Shown here one piece after another: positions 33,129 to 64,000 of a DNA stretch of 64,000 bases (position 1 is the first letter of the stretch; each line of letters opens with the position of its first letter). The notes under the pieces were generated by a model, which was not told the DNA's origin, ran no database searches, and was given only the letters and a program-made list of their open reading frames with translations. Origin of the DNA: Pseudosulfitobacter sp. DSM 107133. GTDB taxonomy: Bacteria > Pseudomonadota > Alphaproteobacteria > Rhodobacterales > Rhodobacteraceae. Made by a program: the position numbers and the translations under genes. The stretch spans positions 1 through 64,000 of the forward strand of contig NZ_CP085155.1 of assembly GCF_022788695.1 (NCBI RefSeq), in the 5' to 3' direction.

Positions 33129-33148
33129 TATTATCGTAGACTACTCTC

Positions 33149-38901: not shown

Positions 38902-38906
38902 GGCCG

Positions 38907-41368: not shown

Positions 41369-41452
41369 ATGATTACCTTGGAAAGCGTTTGGATATCGGA
41401 TGGGGCGCGCCGGTGCGACGCCCCCCTTCCATGTGACGAGATACCGGCGTGG

Positions 41453-43516: not shown

Positions 43517-43631
43517 TTTTCTTCCCAAAACGCTTGGACTCGCACTAACATCAACTCAGTATCAGTACAATTTTTTCACGACCGACTTTGAATTACATTG
43601 AATATCAAGCTGCTTGTACAATGGAGTAATT
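43517..43631. promoter_or_regulatory. Divergent gap before the giant gene
   Basis: 115 bp, AT-rich. On the plus strand TACAAT (43617-43622) could be a -10 box with TTACAT 18 nt upstream as a weak -35. GGAG at 43623-43626 lies 5 nt before the TTG chosen as start of the giant gene. The promoter and the ribosome site cannot both be right. Confidence 0.4.
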
Positions 43632-46600
43632 TTGACGCATTGGGGGCCTAATAACGGCGTAAACCGTTTGACCGATATTGATGGTCGGTCCGGTGGGCAG
43701 GCGCTCGCGACGGGCAGGCGCGCCTCTTCGTTGAAGAACCAGACGACTCTTTCAAGGGGGCTTCACCTTGAAACATTCGAGCCGCGCGTGCTGTTGTCTG
43801 CCGACCTTATTCCCGTGGCCGGCAGCATTGAAGTCCCCGGAGAAACAGACCTTTACACCTTTGAGCTTGCCGAAGAGCGGTCTTTGATCTTTGACACGCT
43901 GACCAACAATTCACAGTTTCGCTGGTCGCTTGAAGGTGTCGGCGGGCAATTGGTGGCACCCACCCGTTTCACGCAGGCTGATGCGGCGGACGGGGGCGAT
44001 ATCCTGTCGCTGGATGCCGGCACCTATACGCTTTCTGTTGATGGTGAAGGCGATGCCACAGGGGCCTATCAGTTCCGGCTGTTGAACGCGGCAAATGCCG
44101 AATCAATAGCGCCTGGCACACGAATCAACGGCACCCTGGGCGAGTCGGGTCGCGAGACGGATTTATTCCAATTCGAGGCGACCGAGGGCACCGAGCTGTT
44201 TTTTGACGCCCAACAAGACGACGGCGGCGGCAACGCGTACTGGACTTTGATCGACCCCGACGGCACCCGGATTTTCGGACCGACGTTGTTTCGCACCGCG
44301 CAGGATGTGACACGCTTTGTGGTGCCCAAATCGGGCGTTTACAAGCTTTTGCTTGAAGGCAGCGTGACCAACGGGGCGGACAAGGATTATGCCTTTACCA
44401 TCGTGCCTGTTGTCGATGAAACCCGGGCGATTGCTTTGGACGCGATCATCAATGACACGCTGGACCAGCCCGGGCAACGACACACCCTGACCTTTTCGGT
44501 GGCACAAGACACCCAGGTATATTTCGACATGCTGCTTGGCTCGGCCCATGTGGTGTCGTTGCGCGGCCCGTTGGGTGAGGTTTTTGGCCCGCGCGAGATG
44601 CAGTATTCCGACTGGGCTTATGCCAATCCGGTATTTGATCTGGTGGCAGGCGACTATGAGCTGACCATTGGCGACGGGTCTGACACCACGGGTCGCTATG
44701 CCTTCCAGTTGCTGACTGCGGCCTCGGCGACGCCGATTGCATTGGGTGAAAAGGTCGAGGATGTTCTGAGCGATCGCGGCGTTCACACATCGCTGTATCG
44801 CGGGCCATCGGGGGCGGGGCTGTCCGATCCCGGCGGCGCGCAGCGGTTCGGCACCAGCGGGCCTGTTGTCACCGTGCCCGATACACCAGGGCTGAACGGG
44901 CAAACCCTGACCGTCGAAGGCTGGTTTCGCCCGGACCGCAACAACAGCTTTGATGCGCTGGCGATCAAGACATCGAGCACGTCGTGGAACGATGGCTATG
45001 GGCTTTATCTTGACGGGTCGGGCAATGTTGTCTTTTTCCTGAACCAGTATTCCGCAAGCGCCAGCACGGTTCTGGCCGCGGTTGAAACCGGAGTCTGGCA
45101 GCATGTTGCGGCCACTTACGACGGCAGTGCGATCCGTCTTTATGTCGATGGCACCCTGCAGGACGAACAGGCCTTTTCCACGCCTGTCGTTCACAGCGCC
45201 AATGATCTGGCCCTGGGGTCGATGGCGGATGGCAACTATCGCTATGCCGGGCAGATGGACGAGCTTCGCGTCTGGTCCACCGCGCGCAGTGCGGCCCAGA
45301 TCGCTGCGGGGGCCGCGCAAAAGATACAGACCGGCACCGGCCTGACGCTGTCCTTTGGTTTTGATGAAGATGATGCGGGGGCAATTGCCGACCGCACAGG
45401 ACAGGGCAATGACGGGGTATTTGCCCTTGGTCCCGCGACGGAAACCAAACTGTACCAATTTGATGGTGTCGCGGGTGACCGGCTGATCGGCAACGGGCTG
45501 GGCGGCGGCAACGCCTATATGCGGCTGATCGGGCCGTCGGGGCGGGTTGTTGCAGGGCCCGGCAACTTTGGCGCAACGCTGAACACGGTGTTGCCTGAGG
45601 ATGGCACCTATACCGTGCTGGTCGAAGGCTATTCCTTTGCGTCGGCGCCCGCGGCGTTCGAATTTACGCTGGCACCGGAAACGACCGAGACGCTGAGCCT
45701 GAGCGTGGGTGCCGTGACCAGTGGCGAAATCACCGAGGTGGGTCAGAACCTTGCCTATGACTTCACTCTCGCGGCGGGTGCATCGCTGATCTTTGACAGC
45801 CTGACCAACAGGTCTGATCTGGTGTGGTCCCTGATCGGCCCGCACGGCAGCGAAATCGTCGCGCGCCGCTTTGATCGGTCTGACAGCAACGCGATTGGCA
45901 ATCTGTCCCTGATAGATCTGGCAGCGGGTGCCTATACCCTGATGGTGTCGGGGGTGGCCGGGGCAACCGGGGCGTTCGGGTTCCGCCTGTTCGATGTGGA
46001 GTCGGGCGACAGCATCGCCTTTGACGAGACCGTCACCGACCTGCTTGATCCGGCAGATGAAACCAATGCCTACCGGTTTACGGCGAACGCGGGGGATACA
46101 ATCTCGTTGCTGCCGACATCGGGCAATCCCTATGGCCGTCTTTATGATCCGTTCGGGCGTCTGGTCTTTGAAAACAACTACTTCGCGAACCAGACCGACC
46201 TGCAATTGATAGCGACCGGCACCTATACCCTGCTGTCGGAAGGGTTTCGCGGTGCAACCGGGACGGCGCAAAGCGTGTTTTCCGTTGTGCGCACCGGCAC
46301 CACACCATTGCCAACGCCGCAAGGCACGACGCTTGCGATCGGCACGACGATCACCTCCAACATTGCGCAGGCGAACGAACGGGATTCGTATAAGTTTACT
46401 CTGGCTCAGGCCAAGACTCTGTATTTCGATGCGCTGAGCTATGACAACTCAGGGACAGTCTACTGGACCTTGACCGGCCCGCGCGGCACCGAGGTGACGC
46501 AGCGCAATTTCCTGCAAAGTGACGGGGTTGATCGGGCGGGTTCGCCATTGATGGATCTTGTTGCCGGCACCTATCAGCTGGATGTCTACCGTGAAGGGAC

Positions 46601-49600
46601 GCAGACAGGCGACTATGCGTTTCGCGTGCTGGATGCGGGCACGCGCACTGCGGTGACGCTGGATACCGCTGTTACGGCAACGCTTGACCCGAACCGGCGC
46701 ACCGATCTTTACAGTTTTGATGTCTCCGGCCCGTCCCGTCTGGTGTTCGACGACGTGACGCGCAGCGGGCTTTTTTATGGTCTGGGCTACCGGATTTTCG
46801 ACGCACGCGGTGTTCAGGTGGCCGGCGGCAGCGATATTGCGACAGCCGGGCCGGTCGATCTGTTCGCGGCGGGCACGTATACGTTGATGATCGAGGGCCG
46901 CATTTACGAAACCGGCGCGGCATCCGAATACGGTTTCACCCTGCGCCCGATCGAGGAAACCAGCGCTGCGCTGACCTTTGGCACGCCGGTGAGCGGCACG
47001 CTGGGAACCGTACACGCGCAGCATCGGTTCGATTTCGAGCTGGACAGCGACAAGACGGTTTTCTTTGACTCGCTGCTGGCCGAAAGCAACGCCGTTGTCA
47101 CCATCAGTGGTTCAGACGGATATGTGCGCAGTTTCAACCTGCGCAGTGCGGATTCTGCGGACACCAGCGTGTCGCCTTTGATGCGTCTCAAGGCGGGTAG
47201 CTACACGGCAACAGTGACCGGACGCAACAACACCGCGCCGGATTACGGCTTTCGCCTGGTCGACGCGCGTACGGCCACGGCGATCACCCCTGATGTTCCG
47301 GTCTCGGGCGTGCTGGACGGCGGGCGTGAAAGCGACATCTATGCCATCACGGTTTCGGTCGGCCAGATCCTGACGCTGGCCGATTTCAGCGTGACCGGCA
47401 ACACGCAGCAGATTTATTACCGGCTGTTTGACCCCGCAGGGCGTCAGGTTGCAGGGCCAAGCAACGTCAACACGGTCGCCCCTTATACGTTCGATCTGCC
47501 CGGCACCTATTATCTGAGCATCGAGGGGCGGGTTTTCGAGACAGGCACGCCTGCCTATGGCTTTACCCTGATTGATCCACAAAGCCCCGACCCCGAAGCC
47601 ATGGAACTGGACGCGGTGGTGGCAACCGAAATCGCGCGGCCCGGCCAGCAGCAGGTGTTCACATTTACCCTGACCGAGGCCAGGCGGCTGTATCTGGATT
47701 CCCTGACCAACGATACAGCGACCTTTGTGCGTATCGAGGGGCCAAAGGGCATCAGCCGCACATACCGGATGTCAGCGGCGGACAGTTTTGATTTCGGCAC
47801 GGGCAATCCGGTGTTTGATGCTGCCGCGGGCGATTACACGGTTACAGTCTATTCGGAAGGAACCCGCACAGGCGCGGCCAGCTTTGTGCTGCGGGATCTG
47901 TCGATCGGCACCGCCGTTGACTTGGGGGCCGAGGTGGCCGGCACCCTGAACCCCAAGGTCGAAACGGATATCTATCATTTTGATGGCACCGTTGGCGACC
48001 AGTTGCTGATGGACGTGCTGCGCGAAGATGGCGACCAATACGGGGTTTACTGGCGGCTGATCGACCCGGACGGACGTCAGGAAATCGGGCGCTCGCGCTT
48101 GTCGGACAGCGAGCTGTTCACGCTGAAGCGGTCCGGGCGCTATACGGTTCTGATCGAAGGACGTATCCACGAGGGCGGCGGCGCCATCGACTATGGATTT
48201 ATCCTGCAGCCGGCTGTGGTCGAGACCCGGTCGATTGACGCGACGGCCACGGGAGCTCAGGCGGGTCTGTTGGCCGCCGCAGGACCGGACGGGCGTGTCG
48301 CACAGGGGTTCACCGGATACGAGCGAGTTGAGATTGACGATGCGGCGGTGAACCGCACGGGGTCTGTCAGTTTCGAGCTGTGGTTCAAGGGCGATCCGCC
48401 ACCCGAAACATGGCAGTCGCTGGTGTACAACGGCACGGGCGCAGGCACGAACGGACGGCAATATTCGCTGTGGCTGAATGCCTCGGGCTATCTGCATCTG
48501 ACCTCGGCGGATGCCAGTGGCCAGATCGCGGTCAACACAAGCGGCGGATCGGTTGCATTCGGGGCGTGGAACCACGCGGTTGGTGTGGTCGATCGTGATG
48601 CCGACGTCTTGCAAATCTATCTGAACGGTGTGCTGGCAGGTGAAACAGCGCTGCGCGACCAGGACAGTGTGGCGGTCAGCGAACCGTTGCTGCTGGGCGG
48701 AAACCGCGAAGGACCCAACGGGTTCGAAGGCGCGATGGCGGGCTTTCGGCTGTTTGGCACGGCGCTGTCTGAGGAAGACGCGGGCCGACTTTTCAACGGA
48801 CAGTCGGTAACCGCTACAGCGCTTGTCGACCTGCCCATGACCGAAGCGCCGAAAGCCACGACGCTGGCCGATGTCAGCGGCGCAGGCCGTGCGGGGGTGG
48901 TAAAGGATTTTACCGCCGGATTGCAGGGTGTGTTCAAGGGGCGCATCGAACGGGCGGGTGAGGTTGACGTTTATACCTTCACGCTCGGCAGCGAAAAGCT
49001 GCTGTATTGGGACACCTTGGGCAATACCAACCGCGTTACGGCAACTTTGACCGGACCGGGTGGCGTGCGGATCATCCGCGAACTGGACGACACCGGCGAC
49101 ACGAACAACACCGGAAATTATGCGTTCAGGGCACCGGCGGGCGACTATCAGCTCAGCTTTGATGCGGATCAGGCGGACAAGCGGGCCTATGCGCTGCGTC
49201 TGATGGATCTGGGCGCTGCGCAGGCGGTGGATGTCGATGGCGCGGCGATCACGGGCGAGATTGGCGCGCGCCGGGCGGCCACGGCCTTTGCCTTTGAGGG
49301 CGCGCAGGATGACCGGATTTTCCTGGATGTTCTGTCGCTGGGCCTGAGTGCGGGCGAAGCGGCATGGCGGATACTGGACCCCTTTGGCCAACAGTTTCTG
49401 GGGCCTGTCACGGCGGGGGATATCGACACTTTCACCCTGCCTTTTGACGGCACCTATACCCTGATCCTTGAGACCGACAGGTATTTGCAGCCACAAGGCA
49501 CGGTGCCGTTTTCCTTTGCGCTGGTGCCGGTCAGCACCAGCCCGGTTGAAATCACCATTGGCGGCGACAATCCGGGTGCCGTGCCAGAGGTTGTTACCGG

Positions 49601-52600: not shown

Positions 52601-55600
52601 CGACCAGAGCGGCGGGGCCACCGGATATTACAAGCTGATCGGGCCCGACGGGGCTGTGATCAGGGAACGCAGCCGTTTTATTGATGATTTCGAAACCACC
52701 GGACTGACCCAGCCGGGCACCTATTTCCTTCTGTATGAAGGGGTCTACAACGCAACGACCCCGGTGCCCTACAGCCTGACTGCCTTTACACCGGGGCAAG
52801 ACACGCAGGCCATGACACTTGGCACGACCGTGTCAGGGGGCATCGCAGCAATCGGAGACCGCGCGACCTATACCTTTACCCTGAACGAGCGCACGCAGGC
52901 GGTTCTGGATTCACTGACCAACCGCGATGATCTGGTCCTGACGGTAAACGGACCCGGCGGACAGATGTATTCGAACACGTTGCTGCGTCTGGATTCAGAA
53001 TACCGCAACGACGCCGCCGTTCTGGATCTGGTCGCGGGGGACTATACGGTCACGCTGGACGGGGCGGGCGCGGCCATTGGTGATTTCGCCTTTGTTCTGC
53101 ACGATCTTGGCACTGCGACGGCGCTGACGTTGTCGGAGCGTACCGAGGCAACCTATACACCGGGCAACAGCACCCAAGTGTTCGCCTTTGACGGGGCGCG
53201 CGGCGATCAGTTCTATCTGGATTATCTCGACGGCAGCCTGAACGGGCGCTGGAAGATCGTGAACGGGTTCGGCACGTTGGTGAACAGCTCGGCCAACCTG
53301 CGCAGTGACCAGCCGTTGATCACGCTTACATCGGATGGCCCGCAATACCTGATTGTCGAGGGTCGCATTCTGGACACGGGCGCGCAGACCCATGCGTTCC
53401 GGCTGGTGCCGCTTAGCGCGAGCGCGCTGGATATTGCGCTGGACGAAACCATTGACGGGCAGATCCTGTTGCCGGGTCAGACGGCCGAGCACAGCTTTAC
53501 CCTTGATGCGGGCAAGCGGGTGTACATCGATGTGCAGGCCCCCAACGCAAACAACTGGACATGGCAGCTGACCGGCCCGCGCGGTCAGGTCGACAGCCGC
53601 AATTTCCGCAGCTCGGATGCGGAGGGGGTAGCGACGGCGCCGATCTATGACCTGCCGCCCGGTGATTATACCTTGCGGGTGGTGCCCTCGGCCGGGGTGA
53701 CAGGTGATTTCAGTTTCAAGGTGATCGACGTGGACGCCGCCGATGCGGTCACTTTGGGCACCGCGCTGTCGGGACAACTGGCCCCCGGATCGGAAACCAA
53801 GGTATACCGTCTGGAGGGGACCGCCGGACAGCGGCTGTTTTTCAACTATCCGTCGCTTGATTATGGCGTCGTCTGGCGGCTGGTCGATCCGTTCGGGCGC
53901 GAGGTTTTTGACCAATATGCCAGCGATGTCGACACCATCACGCTGGAAGAAACCGGCACCTATGCGTTGCTGGTCGAGGGCAACATTAACAGCCCTGACC
54001 GTGCGTTCAGCTTTAACGTCTTTTCCAATGCGCTCAGCGCGCCGGTGCGTCTTGCCGCGCTTGAGGTCGTGCCTTCGCCCGATTTGACCGTGTCCCGTTT
54101 CGCACTGGACGGTGCGGATACGCTGGAGTCCGGTGGCGTGGTGCCACTGGTTTTTGACATTACCAACGCGGGCGATCTGGCGACTGCGGGTGATTTCAGC
54201 AGCCGCATCACCCTGCGGCGGGTGGATACAAACGCCATCGTTGCGGATCTGGTGGTGCCCTATGATGCATCGGTCAGGGGCAACATTGCAGCAGGGGCAA
54301 GCGCGACGCAAACCGCGACCTTGCAATTGCCGCCCGGCACCGCCGCCGTGGGCGATATCGTGGCCACGTTGCGGCTGGATGTGAACAACGATCAGGACGA
54401 ACAGAACGCGGTGGGTGATGCCGAGGCGAACAATGCCGCCACCCTGCCGCTTGAGGTCGCTCTGGCCTCGTCTGCCGATCTGGTGGTGCAGGATCTGACC
54501 GTGACACCGGGGCAGGGCTGGACGCCGGGGCAAAGCGTGACGGTGGATTACGCGCTGGCAAACGTCGGTGGGAAGGCAGCGCAGGCGCCCTGGACAGAAC
54601 GGCTGGTGGTGACGGACACGATCACGCGGCGCGTCGTCTACAGCCAGTCGCTGCGCTCGGTCGGTGAGGCGGCGCTGGAAGGTGACACCACGCGGGCGCG
54701 CAGCATTGCGTTCGGCTGGCCCAGCGGTGCGGATGCCACGGGGCTGTATGATTTCACGGTGGTTGTTGATGCGCTGGCCGAAGTCGACGAGGCCAATGAC
54801 GCAGGCGACGCTGAAACCAACAACACCGCATCGCTGCTGATCGCTTCGGCGCCCGATCTGGTGGTGGCCGCGATTGAGGTGCCCCAGTCGGAAATTCAGT
54901 CGGGCGGCGCGCTGACGATCAACTGGACGGTTGAGAATCTGGGCGCAGCGGCGACGCCGGCGGATTGGAACGACCGGATCATTCTGCGCAATCTGACCAC
55001 GGGTCAGATCCTGGAGGATGTGGCCGTGGCCTCGGCCGGATTGCGCATTGCCGCAGGCGCAAGCGCACAGCGCACGGTGACGCTGGATATTCCGCACGGG
55101 GCCGCCGGCACGGGACCGCTGCGCATCGAGATCACAACCGACCGAGACACCGACGGGCGCGACCAGCTTAAGGAAGCGCGCACCGGGTTGTCCAGTTTTC
55201 AGGCCGAACAGAACAACAGGACCGACCTGACGATCACCTCCGAAGCGCGGGTCTATGCTGATCTGGTGACCACGATCACCGGCTTGCCGACGTCGCCGCG
55301 CGGCGGTGAAACCGCGACGATCCGCTGGCGTGTGACCAATACCGGCACGGTGCCGACCGATGCATCTGCGTGGACAGATCGCGTGTATCTGTCCAGCGAC
55401 GGCATTCTTGATGCGGATGATATTGTGCTGGCCAGCCTGCCGCGCGATGCGCTGCTTGCTGCAAATGGCAGTTATGACGCGCAGGCGGATGTGATCCTGC
55501 CTGCGGGCATCGAGGGCACGGTATATCTGTTTGTCGAGGCGGACGCAGAGCGCGACGTGACCGAACCGGATACACGCGGCGACAACGTGGCAAGCGATAC

Positions 55601-58600
55601 GATTGCGCTGTCGTCGCCCTATTCGGATCTGGTTGTGCAAACGGTGATCGGCCCCGCCGGATCTTTCGTTTCGGGTGAAGCTGTCGACGTGCGGTGGCGC
55701 GTCGCAAACGCAGGGCCTGATGCAACCCCCGCTGCGCCGTGGGAAGACCGGGTCTATTTGTCGACAGACACCACGCTGGATGCCAGTGATGTGCTGGTCG
55801 CGAGTGTGGGGCACAGCGGCGCACTGGCCGCCGGAGCAAGCTACAGCCGCGCCGAAGCGATCACCCTGCCGCCGGGCTTTGTCGGTGATTTCTTTGTGAT
55901 CGTGCAGACCAATGCCGATGACGCCGTTTACGAGCGCGCTGAGACCGCGAACAACCAGCGGGCCTCGACGGACACCTTGGCGCTGGCGGCGGCTCCTTCG
56001 GCGGATCTGGTGGTGGTGTCGGTCAGTGGCCCTGACGCCTTGCTGCCGGGCACCGAGGCCGAGATCAGCTATACCATACGCAACGACGGAGAAGCGGCCG
56101 CCCGCGCGCCGTGGCGGGATGGCATCTATCTTGTTGGCCCCGGCCTGGGCAGCGGCTTGTTCCTGGGCGATGTGGACCGTCCCTTTGATCTGGCCGCCGG
56201 TGAAAGCTATGATGCGACGGCCAGTGTCACCATCCCGCAGGTCGGGCAGGGCGCCTATCGGATCGAGCTGCGCGCCGACCGTGCCGCGCAGGTGTTCGAG
56301 GGCGGGCGCGAAAGCAACAACAGCGGGGCCACCGGTGATCTGGGGCTGTTGCATCCGAACCTTGTGATTGCCGAAGTCACCGCAGATGACACAAGCCCGC
56401 AATCAGGCGATACGATCCGCGTCACCTGGACGACTGAAAACATCGGCACTGGCGCGGCGACAGGCGATTGGACCGACCGGCTGTACCTGAGCCGTGATAC
56501 CACGCTGGATGCGCAAGACATTGCGCTGGCCGCCCGTACCAATGACAAAGCCTTGGCCGCAGGGGCCGACAGCGTGGCCTTTGCCGACGTGCAACTGCCG
56601 ATTTCGGTGTCGGGCACATGGTTTGTTCTGGTCGGCACCGATGCCGACAAGGACGTGGCCGAGCCTGCCCACGAAGACGACAATTTCGGCTCTGTTGCGG
56701 TGGAAATTGAACTGGCACCCTTTGCCGATCTCGAAGTCGGCGACGTTGTGGCACCGGCGTTGACCATTCAGGATCCGGCCTTTGTCGAGGTGTCGTGGTC
56801 GGTGACAAACACCGGCACGGGGCGTGGCATCACCGATGCATGGACCGACCGCATCATGCTGTCGCGCAATGACATCATCGGGGACGCGGATGATTTCGAA
56901 GTTGCCCGTTTCGACCATCAGGACGGATTGGACAAGGATGCCGCGTATACCCGAGCCGAATCCTTCTTCCTGCCCGCCGCGCTGACGGGGCGGTTCAAAC
57001 TGTATGTGACCACGGATGCCGGCGGCGTGGTGTTTGAAAACGGTCAGGAGGCCGACAACACCGCCGTGCTGAGCGGATATTTCGACGTTGCCCCCATTCC
57101 CTATGCCGACATGGTCGTGGACAGCGTTACCGCGCCAGCCACGGCGCAATCGGGCACCGATGTCACGATCAGCTGGCAGATTTCCAACAAGGGGCTGGGG
57201 CTGACCAACGTGTCGCGCTGGACCGATACGGTTTACATTGCCAACAACCCAGAGGGCACGGGACGGCAACTGCTGGATCGTTTTGACCATCTGGGCTTCT
57301 TGGCGGCGGGCGGCAATTATCAGCGGGATGCGGTGGTTTCCTTGCCCGATGGCTGGGAAGGTCCGGCCTATTTCATTGTCGAAACCCCCGGCAGCGCCAG
57401 TGCAACCAGCAGCACACCCTTCGAGCTGGTGTTTACCGACGCGGGCAATACGGGCATGTCGGCGGCCACGGATGTCGTGCTTTCGCCGCCGCCAAACCTT
57501 GTTGTCACCAATGTAACCGTGCCTGAAACGGCGCTGGAAGGCGCGCCGGTTGATGTGATCTGGACCGTGCGCAACACCGGGATCGGTCCAGCGACAGGCA
57601 CATGGACCGACAAGCTTTTCCTGCGCAAATCGGACGGATCGCAGAACGACATTGCGCTTGGCACTTATACCTACACAGGTCCATTGCAGGCCAACACGTC
57701 GTATACCCGCCGCGAACAGATCATCCTGCCCGAGCAGACCAACGACCGCTATGATCTGATCGTGGTCACCGACTTTGGCGACACGGTGTACGAACATACC
57801 GCCGAGGACGACAACGAAAGCACGACCGTCGCGCAGGTGCTGGTGGCGCGTTTGCCGCGCCCCGATTTGCAGGTTTCCAGCTTTGAAACCGGCGACAGCT
57901 ATACCGCCGGTGCCACCGGATCGTTGCGCTGGACGGTGATCAACCAGGGGCCGGTTGCGACGGATGTGCCGAACTGGAGCGATGCGGTTTACCTGTCGCT
58001 TGACGAAAAGATCACATCCGACGACATCCGGCTGGGCAGTTATTCGAACGAGGCGGCACTGGCACCGGGCGAGCAATACTTGAGCCGCGAAGTGTTTTTC
58101 CAAATTCCGCAGCGTTTCCGCGGCACGGTCTATCTGCTGGTCGAAACCGACAGCGGCAATGCAGTTGGCGAATGGCCGAACGAGCGGAACAATCTGGGCG
58201 TTCAGGAAATCTATGTCGATCCGATCCCCTTTGCCGACATTGTCGTCGACAACGTGCGCACGCCCACCCAATCGTTCGAGGGCAACACGGTTACGGTCAA
58301 CTATACGGTGACCAACCGCGGGGCCGGGGCCACAAACCTTGGCAACTGGGCCGAGCAAATCTGGCTGACCCGCGACAAGAACCGCCCGCACCCCGGACAG
58401 GGTGATATTCTGCTGCGCACGCTTCAGTATTCCGACGGGGTTCTGGATGTGGGCGACGGTTATGACCGCACCGTCGAGGTGCAACTGCCCGGATCGGTGC
58501 CGTCGGGTAACTATTACCTGACCCCGTGGATCGACCCCTATGCGACCCTGCTGGAAGACACGCTTGCCACGAACGTAAATGAGGACGACCCGACCGAGAT

Positions 58601-61600
58601 CAATTCGAACAACTACAAGGCAGGTGGCGGCGATATCATCGGCGCTCCGCCCGTCTTGCAGATCATCGGCCTGCCGCCTGATCTGACCCGGCCCGATCTG
58701 TCGGTTGAAATCGACACGGTTACACCTGTGGCCGTTTCCGGTGTCAGTGGCCAGAACCGGTTTGAAATCACCTATACGCTGACCAACCACGGCGACAAGG
58801 TTGCGACCGGCTGGGAGGTGATCACCAACCTTGCCGACACGCCGGACCTGAACGCGGGCAATCAGGACAGGTGGCAGTTGACGCGCGCAGGCGGGGCCGA
58901 GATCGGGATTGGCGAAAGCCTGAGCGTGACTCAGGTGGTTGACCTGTCTCCGGGTGTCGAGGGAAATTATGTTTTCGCGACGGTTTCGGTGCCCGGGGAC
59001 AGTGACGCCAGCAACAACCGCGACGTGGCGACCACCTCTGTCAGCGCGCCCGAACCTGATCTGGTCGTGGTTGATGTGACCGCGCCGACCGTTTCGTTCT
59101 CGGGCGAAGAGATCGAGATCAGCTATACCGTGCGCAATGACGGCGAAGCCGACATCTGGGACCAGACGAAATACTGGCGCGACGAGGTCTGGATTTCGCG
59201 CGATCCCACCTTTATCCAAAACCGCGCCGTGCAATTGGGCAGCGTGTCTGTCGCCAACAACGATCCGTTGAAGGTGGGTCAAAGCTATACCCGCACCGTC
59301 ACCGGCATGCTGCCGCAAGGGGCCGAAGGCGATTGGTACGCCTATGTGTTTACCAACGTCAATCGCAGGCTCGAAGGGGAGGACCGTCCGTGGCCCGTGA
59401 CCTCTGGCAGCAACGAAGCAACCGGTCAGGCGTTTGCGCGCACCGCGTTCGAGGATCCCAACGGGTCGATGGGGCAGGCAATGATGCCTGTCACCTATGC
59501 CGAACCTGATCTTCAGGTGACCAACCTTTCGGTGCCAACGGATGTCAGCGCGGGCGAGACGGTCGACATAACGTTCGAGATCACCAATGTCGGCAACCGG
59601 GCGACGCGCCAGACTGTATGGACCGACCGTGTGTACCTGTCTGTGGATTCGTCGCTGGATACATCCGACTTCCTGCTGCGCCGCGAGGAAGGCGGGCGTG
59701 AAATTCGCGCCGAATTCCTGCGCAATGGCATACTTGAGGCCGGCGAAAGCTATACCGCCACGGTTCGTGTCACGATGCCTTTCGAGATCGAGGGCGATTA
59801 TCATGTTCTGGCGGTGGCCGATTCACAGTTTGCCGACTCGGGCAGCCGGAAGTCGTCGATTTCGGACCGGTTGCCGGGGCTGGCGGGTGCTGCGGATGGC
59901 AAGGTGCGCGAGTTCCAGGGCGAGGGCAACAACACCACCGCTCAGGCTGTCACCGTTGGCCCCTATGTTGCCCCCAATCTGACGGTCACCAATCTGGAAA
60001 CCGATCTGCGCGCAGTGCGCGGGCAGCAGTTCAACCTGTCGTATACGGTGACGAACAGCGGCGGCCCGATCCCGTTCCAGCAACAGGACTGGGACGATCT
60101 GATCTATTTCAGCCGTGACCCGTTCCTGGACCTGAAAGCCGACCGGTTCATCGGGTCGGTGCGCAACCGGATGCCGCTTGAGGCGGGCGAAAGCTATACT
60201 GTTGACCGGCAGATCACCGTGCCAACCGATATGCCGACCGAGGCCTATTATGTCTTTGTCGTCACCGATCCGCAGCGCTATGGCGGGCGCGGTGACGTGT
60301 TCGAGACGGATGACACCGACAACATCCGCGCATCTGACGTGCCGATGATTCTTGAACTGCCGCCGCCCACCGATCTTGAGGTGACGGGCATTACCATCCC
60401 GTCTTCGGCACGGGCGGGCGAACCGATCACGATCAGCTGGACGGTGACCAACCAGTCCGACACCGTGACAGCCGAAGGGCAATGGTCGGATTCGGTGTTC
60501 CTGTCGGCTGATGGCACATGGGATTTGCGCGACAAACCCATCGGACGGGTGCAAAGCAGCGGGACGCTTGCGCCGGGGGAGAGCCGCACACTGACGCTTG
60601 AAACCGTGATGCCTGCGGCGACGCCTGCGGGATACCGCGTGATCGTGCGGACGGATATCTTCAACCAGATCCACGAAGGCGTAAACGAGGCCAACAACAC
60701 CACTGCATCCCCCGACACGATCGAAACCACGGTTGATGAATTGCTGCTGAGCACGCCGAAAACCGTGTCGCTGGCGCAGGGGGCCGAGCGGCTATACCGC
60801 ATCACCGTGCCGCCGCAGGAAACGCTGCGGGTGACGGTGCTGTCGTCGGACCCCGCGGCGCTGAACGAGATTTTCATCCGCCACGACGCCTTGCCTTCGG
60901 CCAATGCATTCGATGCCACCTATGAAGGGCCGCTGTCGTCGAACCTGCTGGCGCTGGTGCCTTCGACCGAGCCGGGGACCTACTATATTTCGGTGCGCAA
61001 TTTCTCGGGCCCGGAAGAGGGGACAGACATCACCCTGCTGGCCGAGTTGCTGCCGCTGGTCATCACCGATGTGGACACCGACCGGGGCGGCGACAGCGCC
61101 TTTGTCACCACGCGGATCAGCGGCGCGCAGTTTGCTGATGGTGCCACAGTCAAACTGGTGCGTCCGAACATAGCCGAATTTTCGCCAGTGGACTGGCGTG
61201 TGGTCAATTCATCGGAAATCATCGCAACCTTTGATCTGACCGACGCGCCGCACGGGCTGTATGATGTGGTTGTGACCAACCCGTCGGGGGCGCAGGCAAT
61301 TGCGCCCTACCGCTTCCTTGTCGAGCGCGGGATCGAGGGCGACGTGACCATCGGGATCGGGGGCAGCCGGGTGGTGCTGCCGGGCGAGACCGAGACATAT
61401 TCGGTGGCATTCCAGAACATGGGCAACCTGGATGCGCCCTATACGTTCTTTGAGGTCGGCGTGCCCGAATTGCACACCAACCCCTATGTTTATGGCCTGC
61501 CCTTCCTTGAGTTTTTCACCAATGTGCGGGGCACGCCCGACGGGGCGGCGGGCACGCCGAACGAAGACGTGTTCTGGGCCGGTCTGGAAAGCATCGTCAA

Positions 61601-64000
61601 CACCAACGGGCAATTGACGACCTCGGGCTATGTCTATGACCTGCCTGCCGACGGGTTTGCGGGCTTTACCTTTAACGTGTCGTCCTATCCGGGGCTGGGC
61701 GAGTTGCACGCCGAGGCCTTTGATGCCTTCCGCGCGCGCATGTCCAACGTCTTGCCCGAGCTTGACGGGATTCTGGAGGAAGGCGGCGAGGGGGCGATAG
61801 GCGACTGGTACGATGCGGTTGTCGAGAAATCGGCCGAGGTCAATCCGGCCTTGGGTGCGGCGATGGCGGCCTTCCCGTTCGAGGATCTGTACAACAGCAA
61901 TGTCGCGCGTCCGGGCGATTGCGAGATTCCGTTTATCCCGTTCCGGTTCCACATCTTTGCTGCCTCGACGTCGATGACTCGCGACGAATTTGTCGCCCAC
62001 CAGACCCAGATCGCGCTGGATCTGCGCGACCGCATTCTGGCGTCGGATGATGCACCCGGAGCGCTTGTGGCCATCGTGGCCGATCCGAACCTGTGGGTTG
62101 ATTTCTCGCTTGCGGGGCTGGAACAGGCGGGCATCTTGCGCGCCGAAGGCGACATTCCCCCGATCCGCGAGCGGCAGGAAATCCTGTCACTGATGGCGAC
62201 ACTGGCCTCGGGGGTTCTGTTTGGTCCGGCGGGTCAGGATATTCGTTCGGACGGTGACATTCTGGGCTTCTTCGAACAGTTGCGCACGCTGTACGGCCAC
62301 GACGAAACTCTGATGGCCGATATCGAATTCATGGATCCGCGCGAAAGCGATTGCTACACGGGCGAAATTCCGGTGCCTGCCCTGCCCGAATTTGATGACT
62401 ATAATATGGGCCTGAGCAACGAGACCCATTTCGAAGCGGTGCGTATCTATTCGCCGTGGGTGCCATTCGAGGATCGCGGCGCGGCCCTGCCCGAAGATTT
62501 CCTGATCAACGGTCCGGCGCCGGTGGATGGCTCGGGCTTTGAAGCGCTGAATTTTTCCGGCTACTTTGCCGATCCAGGGAATTCGGGGCGGCTTGCCTCG
62601 ATGAACGGGCCGCAAACCTTCGAGACAGAGGGCTGGCTGCCCAGCACCGAAGCGCTGCCCTATACCATCAAGTTTGAAAACGACGGTGAATCCAGCGCAT
62701 GGGCAAACCAGATCGAGATTGTCACCCAGCTTGACGACGATCTGGACCCGCGCAGCTTCCGGCTGGGTGACATTCGTATTGGCGATATTACCATCGACGT
62801 GCCGGACGGGCGCTGGTTCTATACTGACGAGATTGATTTTACCGATACGCTGGGCTTTGTGGTGCGGGTCAGCGCCGGGGTTGACCTGTTTCAGGACCCC
62901 GCATCGGCGCGTTGGGTGTTGCAGGCGATCGATCCGTTGACCGGTGAAAAGATTCAAAGCACCACTGCCGGGCTGTTGCCGCCCAACACCGATCTGGGCA
63001 AGGGCGCTGGCTTTGTCAGCTATACGGTGAAACCCGCCGAAGATGTCGAGACCGGCACCCGCATTTCGTCCTCTGCGCGGGTCGTGTTTGACACCGCCGC
63101 CCCCGAAGACACGCAAGAGCTTATTCAGGTGGTCGATGGTGCGGCCCCCACAACCCGCATGACGGCCGATCAGATCGAAGGCACTGACAGCTATGACGTA
63201 GTCTGGACCGCACAGGACGATGCGGGCGGGTCGGGGGTGAAACACGTCACGATCTATGTTGCGACCGACGGCGGCGACTTCAAGATCTGGCAGCGCAGGC
63301 TTGAGCAGGCCACGGGCCAGCTGGTCTTTGAAGGCGAGGCCGGCAAGACCTATGAATTCCTTGCGCTGGCCACCGATATCGCGGGCAACCGCGAACAGCC
63401 ACAGGACGGGTCGGCGGTTACGTCGGATGGCCAGCCGGTCAATCTGGGTGCCACGGCTGCGGTCGAGGGCACCACCGCGCCGAATTTCGGCATAGCGCCC
63501 GAACCGGTGATCCAGCCTGTCACCAATGATCTGTTCCGCATGGCGCTGGACAATGTCCCCTCGGCGGCCCCGCTCAGCAACCTGCCCGAGTTCTCTCAAG
63601 TGCTGAGCCCCTTCATCGGCACGTCGTTTGCGACAGGGTTCCAGACCTCGCAGGCCGGTATCGGCCCGATGGCCATTCTGGAACGTTCGAACGGCGATAT
63701 TCTGGTGTCGGGTGGGGTCAATCGCGGCTCGATCTTTGTGTTTGGGGCCGAGGGCGGCACCGCGAACACCGAAACGCTGCTGGTGACGCTGGACGAGCCG
63801 GTGTTCAATCTGGCCGAAGACGCGGCTGGCAATATCTGGGCCACCACGGGTGGCGGGGCGCTGTTGCAGATCGACGGCAGCAGCGGTGCGGTTCTGGGGC
63901 GTTACGGCGACGGTCTGACATTGGGGCTGGCGATCGAAGAGGCGACCGGGCTGATCTATGTCGGTACAAATTCCGGCATCGTGACCTTTGATGCCGTCGC
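43632..64000 (+). CDS. Giant LEPR-XLL exoprotein (incomplete at window end)
   Basis: One open frame of at least 6,789 codons with no stop. The TTG start has GGAG 5 nt upstream; no in-frame ATG or GTG precedes the LEPR-XLL motif LETFEPRVLLSAD at residues 46-58, a mark of giant surface or secreted proteins. Residues about 60-3480 are PPC-like beta-sandwich repeats with AGTYTLSVDG and TGAYQFRLL themes. Three LamG/concanavalin-like domains interrupt them (about 410-575, 1553-1733, 1990-2177), and a lectin-like block lies near 2620-2860. About 17 CARDB-like repeats follow (3483-5700), then IPT/TIG-like, an unrecognised globular region (5900-6310), a DUF11-like, an Ig-like and a propeller-like segment. 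Probably exported and adhesive or enzyme-bearing; substrate unknown. Confidence 0.92.
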   Translation, partial: MTHWGPNNGVNRLTDIDGRSGGQALATGRRASSLKNQTTLSRGLHLETFEPRVLLSADLIPVAGSIEVPGETDLYTFELAEERSLIFDTLTNNSQFRWSLEGVGGQLVAPTRFTQADAADGGDILSLDAGTYTLSVDGEGDATGAYQFRLLNAANAESIAPGTRINGTLGESGRETDLFQFEATEGTELFFDAQQDDGGGNAYWTLIDPDGTRIFGPTLFRTAQDVTRFVVPKSGVYKLLLEGSVTNGADKDYAFTIVPVVDETRAIALDAIINDTLDQPGQRHTLTFSVAQDTQVYFDMLLGSAHVVSLRGPLGEVFGPREMQYSDWAYANPVFDLVAGDYELTIGDGSDTTGRYAFQLLTAASATPIALGEKVEDVLSDRGVHTSLYRGPSGAGLSDPGGAQRFGTSGPVVTVPDTPGLNGQTLTVEGWFRPDRNNSFDALAIKTSSTSWNDGYGLYLDGSGNVVFFLNQYSASASTVLAAVETGVWQHVAATYDGSAIRLYVDGTLQDEQAFSTPVVHSANDLALGSMADGNYRYAGQMDELRVWSTARSAAQIAAGAAQKIQTGTGLTLSFGFDEDDAGAIADRTGQGNDGVFALGPATETKLYQFDGVAGDRLIGNGLGGGNAYMRLIGPSGRVVAGPGNFGATLNTVLPEDGTYTVLVEGYSFASAPAAFEFTLAPETTETLSLSVGAVTSGEITEVGQNLAYDFTLAAGASLIFDSLTNRSDLVWSLIGPHGSEIVARRFDRSDSNAIGNLSLIDLAAGAYTLMVSGVAGATGAFGFRLFDVESGDSIAFDETVTDLLDPADETNAYRFTANAGDTISLLPTSGNPYGRLYDPFGRLVFENNYFANQTDLQLIATGTYTLLSEGFRGATGTAQSVFSVVRTGTTPLPTPQGTTLAIGTTITSNIAQANERDSYKFTLAQAKTLYFDALSYDNSGTVYWTLTGPRGTEVTQRNFLQSDGVDRAGSPLMDLVAGTYQLDVYREGTQTGDYAFRVLDAGTRTAVTLDTAVTATLDPNRRTDLYSFDVSGPSRLVFDDVTRSGLFYGLGYRIFDARGVQVAGGSDIATAGPVDLFAAGTYTLMIEGRIYETGAASEYGFTLRPIEETSAALTFGTPVSGTLGTVHAQHRFDFELDSDKTVFFDSLLAESNAVVTISGSDGYVRSFNLRSADSADTSVSPLMRLKAGSYTATVTGRNNTAPDYGFRLVDARTATAITPDVPVSGVLDGGRESDIYAITVSVGQILTLADFSVTGNTQQIYYRLFDPAGRQVAGPSNVNTVAPYTFDLPGTYYLSIEGRVFETGTPAYGFTLIDPQSPDPEAMELDAVVATEIARPGQQQVFTFTLTEARRLYLDSLTNDTATFVRIEGPKGISRTYRMSAADSFDFGTGNPVFDAAAGDYTVTVYSEGTRTGAASFVLRDLSIGTAVDLGAEVAGTLNPKVETDIYHFDGTVGDQLLMDVLREDGDQYGVYWRLIDPDGRQEIGRSRLSDSELFTLKRSGRYTVLIEGRIHEGGGAIDYGFILQPAVVETRSIDATATGAQAGLLAAAGPDGRVAQGFTGYERVEIDDAAVNRTGSVSFELWFKGDPPPETWQSLVYNGTGAGTNGRQYSLWLNASGYLHLTSADASGQIAVNTSGGSVAFGAWNHAVGVVDRDADVLQIYLNGVLAGETALRDQDSVAVSEPLLLGGNREGPNGFEGAMAGFRLFGTALSEEDAGRLFNGQSVTATALVDLPMTEAPKATTLADVSGAGRAGVVKDFTAGLQGVFKGRIERAGEVDVYTFTLGSEKLLYWDTLGNTNRVTATLTGPGGVRIIRELDDTGDTNNTGNYAFRAPAGDYQLSFDADQADKRAYALRLMDLGAAQAVDVDGAAITGEIGARRAATAFAFEGAQDDRIFLDVLSLGLSAGEAAWRILDPFGQQFLGPVTAGDIDTFTLPFDGTYTLILETDRYLQPQGTVPFSFALVPVSTSPVEITIGGDNPGAVPEVVTGQIGSALELSGTQHIRVDDTAEIDLTGSVTLEAWIKLDRFTNTWTPILSKSDLGDGRGFDMWVHSNGSLFASSDDVTGRNSAQTAGGLVQAGTWVHVAAVFDRALGQQRLYVNGELARSQGMRTTPAVSNDAPLLVGWTRGTASTYGAVEGMVDDVRVWSDARSTDEIVDNFNAALTGSESNLALYLPLETVAAGATPDAGPASLAAQVVSLIPKGVTGRIGNVGQERVYSFTLNADTRLYFDSLTDRSDLRYRIDGPNGVVVDRHFRQSDADGAIGNNPVMDLKAGDYTVRVSGTGDSTGLFNFVLSDIDTAATPITKGTPFDGALEPANRTRMFRFDGAAGEHVFIDNLIEDGEMEWRLIDRFGNVTLGYVNPADVYDLLLPTDGPHILLVEGDVDPQGRSAFRIAIHSKTEPVPQVLVPNVLQTAVLTNPGDLARYTFDLAAPALMVMDTLANRSDILWTLRGPDGAVITDRRFDQTDGTRFTGNPALDLGAGSYTLDIRANTDAVGDFEFRLIDLATAATPLFFNDQTDGTLPSRGLGTKVFRLSADAFQRFDFDLIDRPASNTSWRVLTEAGQQVVSARRMNDETGVVLEQGGDYFLLIEGTVTDGETTNGYRFELLSPDFPDGSGNSLEEFGAGSSIGHVLINHAGTAATEIPFGTGTALKLLDQLSANAANTIAFSQTADGRYETLDVSFDMTLTGPAVGEPGHALSVLVLPARDFGKGGAVPLLGAEPNSPNVLAATLDLVQSGGDGTTPHISLHYGTEVIEVPLDGLGLSVADLTGGPVTMDLSLKRVKGGTEVGVALTADGTTTQVIDGQFLGNFVLADSRVALQAVNLGTQTMDVVVDNVSILATPETSGLTLVPGAVVNGALDVAGAVDRYEMVIAEETTVLMDVMTNNSAIQWSLSGPVAAGQRAFTASDSYHRTGNTLITLTPGTYALNILAPSGAVGSYSFALRDLADAVPLTPGETVTATLDPGNATALYSLDWPGGDQRLYLQSDQSGGATGYYKLIGPDGAVIRERSRFIDDFETTGLTQPGTYFLLYEGVYNATTPVPYSLTAFTPGQDTQAMTLGTTVSGGIAAIGDRATYTFTLNERTQAVLDSLTNRDDLVLTVNGPGGQMYSNTLLRLDSEYRNDAAVLDLVAGDYTVTLDGAGAAIGDFAFVLHDLGTATALTLSERTEATYTPGNSTQVFAFDGARGDQFYLDYLDGSLNGRWKIVNGFGTLVNSSANLRSDQPLITLTSDGPQYLIVEGRILDTGAQTHAFRLVPLSASALDIALDETIDGQILLPGQTAEHSFTLDAGKRVYIDVQAPNANNWTWQLTGPRGQVDSRNFRSSDAEGVATAPIYDLPPGDYTLRVVPSAGVTGDFSFKVIDVDAADAVTLGTALSGQLAPGSETKVYRLEGTAGQRLFFNYPSLDYGVVWRLVDPFGREVFDQYASDVDTITLEETGTYALLVEGNINSPDRAFSFNVFSNALSAPVRLAALEVVPSPDLTVSRFALDGADTLESGGVVPLVFDITNAGDLATAGDFSSRITLRRVDTNAIVADLVVPYDASVRGNIAAGASATQTATLQLPPGTAAVGDIVATLRLDVNNDQDEQNAVGDAEANNAATLPLEVALASSADLVVQDLTVTPGQGWTPGQSVTVDYALANVGGKAAQAPWTERLVVTDTITRRVVYSQSLRSVGEAALEGDTTRARSIAFGWPSGADATGLYDFTVVVDALAEVDEANDAGDAETNNTASLLIASAPDLVVAAIEVPQSEIQSGGALTINWTVENLGAAATPADWNDRIILRNLTTGQILEDVAVASAGLRIAAGASAQRTVTLDIPHGAAGTGPLRIEITTDRDTDGRDQLKEARTGLSSFQAEQNNRTDLTITSEARVYADLVTTITGLPTSPRGGETATIRWRVTNTGTVPTDASAWTDRVYLSSDGILDADDIVLASLPRDALLAANGSYDAQADVILPAGIEGTVYLFVEADAERDVTEPDTRGDNVASDTIALSSPYSDLVVQTVIGPAGSFVSGEAVDVRWRVANAGPDATPAAPWEDRVYLSTDTTLDASDVLVASVGHSGALAAGASYSRAEAITLPPGFVGDFFVIVQTNADDAVYERAETANNQRASTDTLALAAAPSADLVVVSVSGPDALLPGTEAEISYTIRNDGEAAARAPWRDGIYLVGPGLGSGLFLGDVDRPFDLAAGESYDATASVTIPQVGQGAYRIELRADRAAQVFEGGRESNNSGATGDLGLLHPNLVIAEVTADDTSPQSGDTIRVTWTTENIGTGAATGDWTDRLYLSRDTTLDAQDIALAARTNDKALAAGADSVAFADVQLPISVSGTWFVLVGTDADKDVAEPAHEDDNFGSVAVEIELAPFADLEVGDVVAPALTIQDPAFVEVSWSVTNTGTGRGITDAWTDRIMLSRNDIIGDADDFEVARFDHQDGLDKDAAYTRAESFFLPAALTGRFKLYVTTDAGGVVFENGQEADNTAVLSGYFDVAPIPYADMVVDSVTAPATAQSGTDVTISWQISNKGLGLTNVSRWTDTVYIANNPEGTGRQLLDRFDHLGFLAAGGNYQRDAVVSLPDGWEGPAYFIVETPGSASATSSTPFELVFTDAGNTGMSAATDVVLSPPPNLVVTNVTVPETALEGAPVDVIWTVRNTGIGPATGTWTDKLFLRKSDGSQNDIALGTYTYTGPLQANTSYTRREQIILPEQTNDRYDLIVVTDFGDTVYEHTAEDDNESTTVAQVLVARLPRPDLQVSSFETGDSYTAGATGSLRWTVINQGPVATDVPNWSDAVYLSLDEKITSDDIRLGSYSNEAALAPGEQYLSREVFFQIPQRFRGTVYLLVETDSGNAVGEWPNERNNLGVQEIYVDPIPFADIVVDNVRTPTQSFEGNTVTVNYTVTNRGAGATNLGNWAEQIWLTRDKNRPHPGQGDILLRTLQYSDGVLDVGDGYDRTVEVQLPGSVPSGNYYLTPWIDPYATLLEDTLATNVNEDDPTEINSNNYKAGGGDIIGAPPVLQIIGLPPDLTRPDLSVEIDTVTPVAVSGVSGQNRFEITYTLTNHGDKVATGWEVITNLADTPDLNAGNQDRWQLTRAGGAEIGIGESLSVTQVVDLSPGVEGNYVFATVSVPGDSDASNNRDVATTSVSAPEPDLVVVDVTAPTVSFSGEEIEISYTVRNDGEADIWDQTKYWRDEVWISRDPTFIQNRAVQLGSVSVANNDPLKVGQSYTRTVTGMLPQGAEGDWYAYVFTNVNRRLEGEDRPWPVTSGSNEATGQAFARTAFEDPNGSMGQAMMPVTYAEPDLQVTNLSVPTDVSAGETVDITFEITNVGNRATRQTVWTDRVYLSVDSSLDTSDFLLRREEGGREIRAEFLRNGILEAGESYTATVRVTMPFEIEGDYHVLAVADSQFADSGSRKSSISDRLPGLAGAADGKVREFQGEGNNTTAQAVTVGPYVAPNLTVTNLETDLRAVRGQQFNLSYTVTNSGGPIPFQQQDWDDLIYFSRDPFLDLKADRFIGSVRNRMPLEAGESYTVDRQITVPTDMPTEAYYVFVVTDPQRYGGRGDVFETDDTDNIRASDVPMILELPPPTDLEVTGITIPSSARAGEPITISWTVTNQSDTVTAEGQWSDSVFLSADGTWDLRDKPIGRVQSSGTLAPGESRTLTLETVMPAATPAGYRVIVRTDIFNQIHEGVNEANNTTASPDTIETTVDELLLSTPKTVSLAQGAERLYRITVPPQETLRVTVLSSDPAALNEIFIRHDALPSANAFDATYEGPLSSNLLALVPSTEPGTYYISVRNFSGPEEGTDITLLAELLPLVITDVDTDRGGDSAFVTTRISGAQFADGATVKLVRPNIAEFSPVDWRVVNSSEIIATFDLTDAPHGLYDVVVTNPSGAQAIAPYRFLVERGIEGDVTIGIGGSRVVLPGETETYSVAFQNMGNLDAPYTFFEVGVPELHTNPYVYGLPFLEFFTNVRGTPDGAAGTPNEDVFWAGLESIVNTNGQLTTSGYVYDLPADGFAGFTFNVSSYPGLGELHAEAFDAFRARMSNVLPELDGILEEGGEGAIGDWYDAVVEKSAEVNPALGAAMAAFPFEDLYNSNVARPGDCEIPFIPFRFHIFAASTSMTRDEFVAHQTQIALDLRDRILASDDAPGALVAIVADPNLWVDFSLAGLEQAGILRAEGDIPPIRERQEILSLMATLASGVLFGPAGQDIRSDGDILGFFEQLRTLYGHDETLMADIEFMDPRESDCYTGEIPVPALPEFDDYNMGLSNETHFEAVRIYSPWVPFEDRGAALPEDFLINGPAPVDGSGFEALNFSGYFADPGNSGRLASMNGPQTFETEGWLPSTEALPYTIKFENDGESSAWANQIEIVTQLDDDLDPRSFRLGDIRIGDITIDVPDGRWFYTDEIDFTDTLGFVVRVSAGVDLFQDPASARWVLQAIDPLTGEKIQSTTAGLLPPNTDLGKGAGFVSYTVKPAEDVETGTRISSSARVVFDTAAPEDTQELIQVVDGAAPTTRMTADQIEGTDSYDVVWTAQDDAGGSGVKHVTIYVATDGGDFKIWQRRLEQATGQLVFEGEAGKTYEFLALATDIAGNREQPQDGSAVTSDGQPVNLGATAAVEGTTAPNFGIAPEPVIQPVTNDLFRMALDNVPSAAPLSNLPEFSQVLSPFIGTSFATGFQTSQAGIGPMAILERSNGDILVSGGVNRGSIFVFGAEGGTANTETLLVTLDEPVFNLAEDAAGNIWATTGGGALLQIDGSSGAVLGRYGDGLTLGLAIEEATGLIYVGTNSGIVTFDAV
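44860..45360 (+). other. LamG-like domain 1 of the giant protein
   Basis: Residues about 410-576. The concanavalin A/LamG pattern is clear: LTVEGWFRPDRNNSFDALAI, VWQHVAATYDGSAIRLYVDG, LALGSMADGNYRYAGQMDEL and RVWSTARSAAQI. Such domains bind sugars or proteins. Confidence 0.75.
48290..48840 (+). other. LamG-like domain 2 of the giant protein
   Basis: Residues about 1553-1736. Recognisable segments are VSFELWFKGDPPPETWQSLV, FGAWNHAVGVVDRDADVLQI and YLNGVLAGETALRD, with AGFRLFGTALSEEDAGRLF at the end. Confidence 0.75.
49600..50160 (+). other. LamG-like domain 3 of the giant protein
   Basis: Residues about 1990-2177: ALELSGTQHIRVDDTAEIDL, VTLEAWIKLDRFTNTWTPIL, WVHVAAVFDRALGQQRLYVN and VDDVRVWSDARSTDEI. 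Confidence 0.75.
54078..60730 (+). repeat. About 17 tandem CARDB-like repeats in the giant protein
   Basis: Units of roughly 118-156 residues begin at about 54078, 54477, 54855, 55255, 55623, 56001, 56355, 56724, 57105, 57495, 57864, 58233, 58695, 59055, 59508, 59976 and 60369. Each opens with a P/A-D-L-V-V type strand, has S-G-x-x-V-x-V-x-W-x-V-x-N-x-G and W-T-D-R-x-Y-L-S, and ends E-x-x-x-x-D-N. The units are diverged at DNA level, so recent tandem duplication is not evident. Confidence 0.8.

Follow-up and report, generated by a model that had tools for sequence, protein, structure and literature searches.

A giant LEPR-XLL protein of Pseudosulfitobacter sp. DSM 107133 and the conserved export-type gene cassette that probably shares its operon

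How a single polypeptide of more than a megadalton could be moved out of a Gram-negative cell is the question raised by a LEPR-XLL protein gene of Pseudosulfitobacter sp. DSM 107133 (Rhodobacteraceae). The gene begins in the 64,000 nucleotides analysed here (the window; positions 1 to 64,000, forward strand, of contig NZ_CP085155.1) and ends beyond them. The contig, C2 of a host genome (G000) of 13 contigs and 5.21 Mb in total, keeps its own numbering for positions past 64,000. It is argued below that a dedicated trans-envelope exporter, encoded alongside the giant, carries it as cargo, a reading that, with its full mechanism, is given a probability of roughly two in three. The association of cargo and cassette is a matter of observation; secretion of the chain and cleavage of its leader are what we infer from it.

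The giant gene starts at a TTG codon at position 43632 of the forward strand, with GGAG five bases ahead and an in-frame TGA (43599-43601) upstream, and stays open for 6,789 uninterrupted codons to the window end (43632..64000). A first-pass annotation, made from the letters of the window alone, had described a frame of at least this length, ending outside the window, in a gene of more than 20 kb. Both statements were borne out, the latter as an understatement: read along the contig, the frame ends with a TAA at C2:81944 and spans 38.3 kb, encoding 12,770 amino acids (aa) with a calculated mass of 1.353 MDa, a calculated isoelectric point of 4.3 and two cysteines. A separate stop-to-stop count in a genome search gave 12,780 aa and zero internal stops, and the competing long frames in the listed stretches are antisense and at most 1,665 aa long. 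Alignment of the C-terminal part with six relatives (1,686-2,477 codons, 41-51% identity) yielded ratios of nonsynonymous to synonymous differences (pN/pS) of 0.53-0.65, at synonymous divergences (dS) of 1.25-1.67 that are near saturation, which argues that the frame is under purifying selection as a protein. The assignment to the LEPR-XLL class was likewise upheld: the motif, FEPRVLL-SAD at 43761..43829 (forward strand, residues 44-66), scores 29.9 bits against the NCBIfam model NF012209 (LEPR-8K), whose curated cut-off is 17, and 36.3 bits in the genome search.

Four genes follow the giant on the same strand beyond the window. They encode a DUF3467 protein (C2:81969-82310), starting 24 bases past the stop codon of the giant, a GAF-HlyD membrane-fusion adaptor (C2:82350-84215), a fusion of a PqqD domain, an M50 metalloprotease and an HlyD part (C2:84217-86367), and a truncated SecA paralogue (C2:86360-88342), whose gene overlaps the M50 gene by eight bases. 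The spacing is tight, and the giant gene probably heads an operon with an export-type cassette. Operon and cassette lay beyond the view of the first-pass annotation, whose interpretation of the giant is overall partly supported. Ahead of the giant, and divergent from it, lies a gene for an HlyD-type periplasmic adaptor (42677..43528, reverse strand) whose best matches belong to the family of third HlyD proteins typical of cassette loci.

The M50 protein carries HExxH and NP...FDG motifs that are invariant across 21 homologues. In its predicted structure (mean predicted local distance difference test score of 82.5), the PqqD match coincides with strands and helices; there are also a helical bundle and a terminal adaptor-like hairpin. 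Foldseek matches of this model to MexA, MacA and AcrA (E down to 3.6e-10) fit the C-terminal end, where the HlyD matches of the second copy in the genome also fall. In NCBIfam, the nearest families are the daptide intramembrane metalloprotease (E 1.5e-42) and YydH/LiaK, and a PqqD match is found as well; scores of 146 and 161 bits on the daptide model, with a cut-off of 300, mark the cassette M50 as a relative and not a member of that family.

In the SecA-like protein, Walker, DEAD-like and helicase motifs are intact in 24 of 24 aligned sequences. The best PDB match is Bacillus subtilis SecA, over profile positions 43-654, and the profile aligns to residues 15-608 of that protein and to residues 10-616 of Clostridioides difficile SecA2. 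The passage of PMC7503281 on the domain limits of the latter gives a scaffold helix at 578-625, a helical wing at 626-705 and a two-helix finger at 706-781; by these boundaries, the cassette protein stops in the scaffold helix, and both wing and finger are absent. The DUF3467 protein was considered as a possible SecB-like chaperone; for its predicted fold, two fold comparisons returned no SecB row and only weak matches to common folds.

The linkage of cargo and cassette was followed in two nearly independent draws of genomes, which share G000 and at least G145. The first comprised 299 Pseudomonadota genomes of at least 95% completeness; LEPR-XLL occurs in 33, an M50 protein of at least 400 bits in 28 and both in 26, so that the M50 protein is present in 26 of 33 LEPR genomes versus 2 of 266 others (Fisher P 8e-29, uncorrected for relatedness). 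At E 1e-30, M50-like matches extend to 67 genomes, namely all 33 with LEPR-XLL and 34 of the 266 others. As to the two genomes with M50 only, the giant of G150 carries LEPRLLFSAT, and that of G002 runs off its contig. Among the matches listed, the truncated SecA appears in 24 genomes, 23 of the 33 with LEPR-XLL and one of the 266 without. These calls score at least 633 bits, the best housekeeping SecA match being 602, with the exception of G222, whose protein reaches the profile end and was counted as present (a 516-aa frame, one TAG, 595 bits, in the housekeeping range); divergent copies such as that of G002 (145 bits by BLAST) escape the profile. In G034, the sole genome with a SecA-like match and no LEPR-XLL, the giant is cut off where the stretch read stops, close to the end of the contig, and the M50 match contains an in-frame TAA. 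At loci L156 (G002) and L157 (G034), cassettes with divergent SecA-like proteins stand next to giants that look different, and the N-termini of these giants fall outside the stretches covered. A 14-genome control gave matches in seven genomes at E 1, of which one exceeded the cut-off, and no matches at either 0.001 or 0.01.

The second draw covered 199 genera of the family to which the window belongs. LEPR-XLL and M50 occur together in 19, LEPR-XLL only in three, M50 only in two and neither in 175, the five discordant genomes being assemblies of about 130-480 contigs. Copy numbers of the two are equal in all 19 genomes that hold both; three candidates per genome were scored in the first draw and five in the family draw, so extra copies may be missed. 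When a giant and a full-length M50 gene lie on one contig (42 pairs, with distances that assume some 50 codons ahead of the motif), the M50 gene starts less than 3 kb past the giant on the same strand in 31, and the giant comes after the cassette in three more. That LEPR-XLL giants and this cassette go together can be regarded as very probable.

The make-up of the cassette was read from a scan in which an M50 alignment was compared with the genomes of 84,980 species and the best 80 of 499 loci, a non-random set anchored on M50, were kept. A GAF-HlyD gene lies at most 400 bases upstream of M50 in 69 of the 70 loci with room for it, and a SecA-like gene of the same orientation follows M50 at no more than 1.3 kb in 68 of 72. 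Where both flanks are available, a giant frame is found on the strand of M50 in 38 of 42 loci and on either strand in 40; a giant frame is here any of at least 1000 aa with protein-like composition, and that of L053, among the 38, has merely 1,009 aa. Counted over the 80 loci, the families are M50 (80, as the anchor), GAF-HlyD (75), SecA-like (73), third HlyD (50), SapC (16) and TolC/OEP (8, one of them confirmed as OEP). The cassette is spread over several phyla, and the culturable relatives Salipiger abyssi, Pseudooceanicola batsensis and Thioclava pacifica are among its carriers. Labels of the loci include Alpha-, Beta- and Gammaproteobacteria, Nitrospira, Myxococcota, Desulfobulbaceae and Methylomirabilota, and in 10 of 13 M50-bearing genomes chosen as outside the three proteobacterial classes, LEPR-XLL exceeds its cut-off.

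The source genome also holds a second, diverged system: a LEPR-XLL frame of 12,957 aa at C2:363062 and, behind it, a complete cassette (L151, G000:C2:305001-325000) in the order GAF-HlyD, M50, SapC, SecA-like, HlyD. Just beyond this cassette stand two transposase-like frames (IS30-like, by eye). In a SecA tree, which had no SecA2 rows, a single branch with a Shimodaira-Hasegawa-like approximate likelihood ratio test support of 100 splits 77 SecA-like rows from 10 housekeeping SecA rows; L060, L068 and L156 form long branches of unsure placement. The two SecA-like proteins of the genome fall into different, supported groups and are therefore not the result of a recent duplication.

The motif itself comes in two types, as read from the N-termini of all 46 LEPR matches of the first draw. 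In 25 genomes, S-A/G-D/E comes after the motif (NSD and AAD occur once each), and all 25 possess the full-length M50 protein; the seven genomes with only xLLD/FD-type motifs possess none, their best scores being at most 238 bits. These seven, out of 33, had stood as a candidate counter-example of LEPR-XLL without a cassette, which was rejected, as they carry xLLD motifs only and the neighbourhoods read hold a distant M50 gene. Such a protein (697-753 aa, with HExxH) is present in seven of seven D-type neighbourhoods, namely those of G082, G154, G037 (twice) and G064 and that of the second LEPR gene in each of G235 and G006, two genomes with a D-type gene in addition to an S-type one. The D-type M50 proteins score 119-182 bits by BLAST against those of the cassette, and HlyD-type genes usually adjoin. 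Three of them were compared with NCBIfam, where the daptide model is again the best (140-166 bits, cut-off 300). OEP genes were confirmed in G082 and G064, both of those tested, and in G128, whose contig ends within the giant, the OEP gene lies ahead of it. The D-type loci covered are L216-L222, L154 and L162 (G082, G154, G037, G235, G006, G064 and G128); G088, G052 and the other G064 match were left unread. LEPR-XLL proteins with xLLD motifs thus constitute a second class with distant M50/HlyD cassettes of their own. Since leader type and M50 type change together, xLL-SA becomes a candidate site of recognition and cleavage.

In the mechanism proposed, the basic N-terminus ending in LExRxLL-S-A-D would act as a leader to which the PqqD domain of the inner-membrane M50 protein would bind. 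PqqD is a type of leader-binding domain known from peptide maturation. The M50 site would then cut near xLL-SA, and related M50 enzymes of the daptide and epipeptide pathways are thought to cut likewise. The HlyD-like hairpins of the M50 fusion, together with those of the two further adaptors, would bridge to a TolC-type channel without an ATP-binding cassette (ABC) exporter, and the truncated SecA, a putative ATPase, would spend ATP to feed the unfolded chain; SecYEG and the membrane bundle of the M50 protein are the candidates for the inner-membrane channel. Among the cassettes examined, the truncated SecA is seen solely in those of the xLLS type, whose cargo is very long. LEPR frames reach 19,427 aa (G061) where the truncated SecA was shown, as against 4,504 aa (G037) in genomes without it among the matches listed, which is also the upper bound for the xLLD-only genomes. 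This suggests, for few genomes, that the truncated SecA serves very long chains; the largest frame of the family draw, where SecA-like proteins were not searched, has 17,824 aa (G358).

Several observations weigh against a dedicated exporter of this kind. No dedicated inner-membrane channel was identified, and the neighbourhood of the window giant showed no gene of the TolC type. The part of PMC6599042 dealing with known SecA describes the two-helix finger and the clamp as working together, and a truncated SecA without wing and finger may not translocate in the known way. No SecA-like match was found in the seven D-type neighbourhoods or in the stretches read of G263 and G150, nor, by profile alone, in G010 and G069; L057 likewise has none, and L060 and L068 give weak matches of 69-74 bits. 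The existence of cassettes without a SecA-like gene implies that the truncated SecA is not the general motor of LEPR export, and the D-type cassettes strengthen the leader-reading part of the mechanism as they weaken the motor part. Furthermore, DUF3467 occurs in just 26 of the 80 loci, the usual tandem is not shown by G235, G061:C90, G306, G406, G452, G340, G129 and G206, and the cassette is present in G206 next to an xLLDGT motif. In G019, two LEPR genes face one M50 gene, and no cassette gene follows the end of the second xLLS giant (G019:C1:2506229, L223; a 12,249 aa frame) in the stretch read; this giant may use the other cassette in trans. Loci L153 (G263) and L155 (G150) are xLLS/xLFS-type cassettes with GAF-HlyD, M50 and HlyD genes beside shorter LEPR giants, and the G263 cassette additionally has DUF3467 and TolC-like genes.

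In a first rival account, the giant crosses the inner membrane through the general SecYEG channel, the truncated SecA is a chaperone or a regulator of SecA, and the M50 and HlyD proteins process the N-terminus and take care of outer-membrane passage. Such a division of labour would suit a SecA without the parts that act on SecY and the cassettes that do without a SecA-like gene, including the xLLD ones read. However, the 40 residues ahead of the motif mostly have no hydrophobic core (28 of 30 valid N-termini stay under 1.0 in their best 12-residue mean), and the SecA-like gene adjoins M50 with the regularity given above (68 of 72 loci), so that this account is considered unlikely.

Even less can be said for the giant as a type I substrate that leaves through an ordinary ABC exporter together with HlyD and TolC; the cassette would then be an accessory for maturation or regulation. 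HlyD-type adaptors are indeed present, TolC accompanies some loci, and many giants of sister loci have 9-19 repeats-in-toxin (RTX) nonapeptides in the part read. Yet a frame that combines the Walker A and LSGG[QE] motifs lies within 7 kb of M50 on the same strand in one of 80 loci, a count that concerns these neighbourhoods, ABC genes elsewhere in the genomes not having been searched. In addition, the window giant itself has no RTX nonapeptide: the first-pass annotation had pointed to the 3' end as the place to look for RTX repeats, an anchor or a type I signal, and neither of the latter two is among the Pfam and NCBIfam matches to the C-terminal 4,270 aa. Improbable as this is, it is still preferable to a third view, in which the cassette matures and exports a product like the ribosomally synthesised and post-translationally modified peptides (RiPPs) and is tied to giants by history alone. 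The match of PqqD and M50 to the daptide and epipeptide maturation families speaks for that view, but a giant adjoins in 38 of 42 loci, all 19 genomes of the family that hold both carry LEPR-XLL and M50 in equal numbers, and motif type co-varies with M50 type. No candidate for a small precursor peptide was recognised among shared open reading frames of at least 60 aa in the cassette loci, shorter ones not having been searched, and the chance of this view being right is taken to be very small.

The dedicated exporter, to return to it, resembles several known systems in part. LEPR-XLL proteins (NF012209, LEPR-8K) share the N-terminal motif over the cut-off and the giant repeat mosaic; the open-access sources read attach no export system to this family, which holds xLLS-like and xLLD motifs with different M50 cassettes. 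Type I secretion and tripartite efflux (HlyB-HlyD-TolC, MacAB-TolC) are alike in their HlyD/MacA-type adaptors, in the TolC-type gene of some loci and in huge repeat cargo, whereas the cassette has no ABC exporter and instead has a hairpin-M50 fusion and a SecA paralogue. The accessory Sec system (SecA2) also employs an additional SecA whose ATPase motifs are intact and which apparently handles particular cargo, but the cassette SecA has neither helical wing nor two-helix finger, and its host is Gram-negative. Daptide and epipeptide (YydH-LiaK) metalloproteases are comparable PqqD-like membrane proteins with the M50 HExxH motif; in contrast to them, the cassette M50 protein has an HlyD-like C-terminal fusion and a partner of thousands of residues, and scores under the family cut-offs. 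LapA-type giant RTX adhesins offer the idea of a giant repetitive surface protein. Export of the LapA type is ABC-dependent and uses a C-terminal signal, neither of which was seen for the window giant.

No description of an export system for LEPR-XLL proteins was found in the open-access literature, subscription papers and preprints being outside the search. LEPR-XLL turned up in two papers: a passage of PMC10868602 mentions a Vibrio protein of about 8,000 aa with LEPR-XLL and RTX, and one of PMC9611531 names LEPR-XLL in a transcript list; neither passage mentions export genes. In the parts available of a review on tripartite efflux and type I secretion (PMC8277102), SecA comes up twice, both times with regard to SecDF, and M50, PqqD and LEPR do not. 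DUF3467 turned up in one open-access paper, on chlorhexidine. The novelty lies in the export-type cassette tied to LEPR-XLL rather than in the architecture of the giant, which the first-pass annotation had called fresh; that remark stands as a minor point, since giants of sister cassettes vary in repeats and RTX content.

The domain order proposed for the giant was recovered with iterated profiles, on which the counts of PPC-like, LamG, CARDB-like and putative-Ig repeats given here rest. The forward-strand region 43812..54032 (residues 61-3467) holds 24 PPC-like repeats with three LamG domains embedded (residues 411-558, 1564-1717 and 2002-2158), LamG scoring above and PPC beneath the Pfam cut-off, and 17 CARDB-like repeats follow at 54081..60659 (residues 3484-5676). 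Beyond the window and on the same strand, 20 putative-Ig repeats occupy C2:65118-67685 and 77724-80888. Among the Pfam families that exceed their cut-offs are Laminin_G_3, CARDB, He_PIG, Big_9, Cadherin_5 and Big_2, and this content supports the notion of a giant mosaic protein with adhesion-type domains. By eye, residues of about 8216-11100 contain a segment resembling Rhs, a stretch resembling a propeller, a dockerin-like repeat (GDLNADG at 8587) and the sequence GHSRG (C2:73986, forward strand); among the best stretches listed, Pfam places only Big_2 there. Near the C-terminus lies a metzincin-like HEMGNAMGL (C2:76950-76976, forward strand). HExG[HN]xxG occurs in 21 cassette-adjacent giants (80 loci, 39 of them with a frame of at least 1000 aa ending before M50), and Asn replaces the second His in L009, L010, L012, L013, L015, L017 and the window giant, so that in this closest lineage the domain is retained but probably inactive. 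Judged by its domains, the giant would be a long extracellular chain in which carbohydrate-binding LamG modules are spaced by Ig-like folds. Outside the cell, some 64 beta-sandwich modules would, by our own estimate, extend over the order of a quarter micrometre, and a giant with glycan-binding LamG would most likely serve as an adhesion or scaffold fibre.

In the window, the divergent HlyD gene adjoins a reverse-strand block (35816-42409) of TAXI/DctM tripartite ATP-independent periplasmic (TRAP) transporter genes, a dCache histidine kinase and a sigma-54 response regulator, before which genes of a sugar ABC transporter and a D-lyxose isomerase lie on the forward strand (32115-35733). Downstream of the cassette, a LacI gene is followed by sugar genes.

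LEPR-XLL proteins include some of the largest predicted bacterial proteins, and the compact, conserved cassette makes their export route testable by single-gene deletions. Taken together, the evidence gives somewhat better than even odds to a new megadalton secretion system, one that would combine RiPP-style leader recognition and an intramembrane cut in LEPR-xLL-S-A-D between xLL and S with a HlyD/TolC conduit that does without an ABC exporter. The xLLS type would add a minimal SecA motor lacking the two-helix finger, and a sister xLLD type would have its own M50 protein and no SecA. If true, this would be a secretion system driven by an unusual motor, namely a SecA reduced to its ATPase core. 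It would link RiPP-type leader processing to protein secretion, and it would account for how chains of 1-2 MDa are placed outside the bacterial cell.
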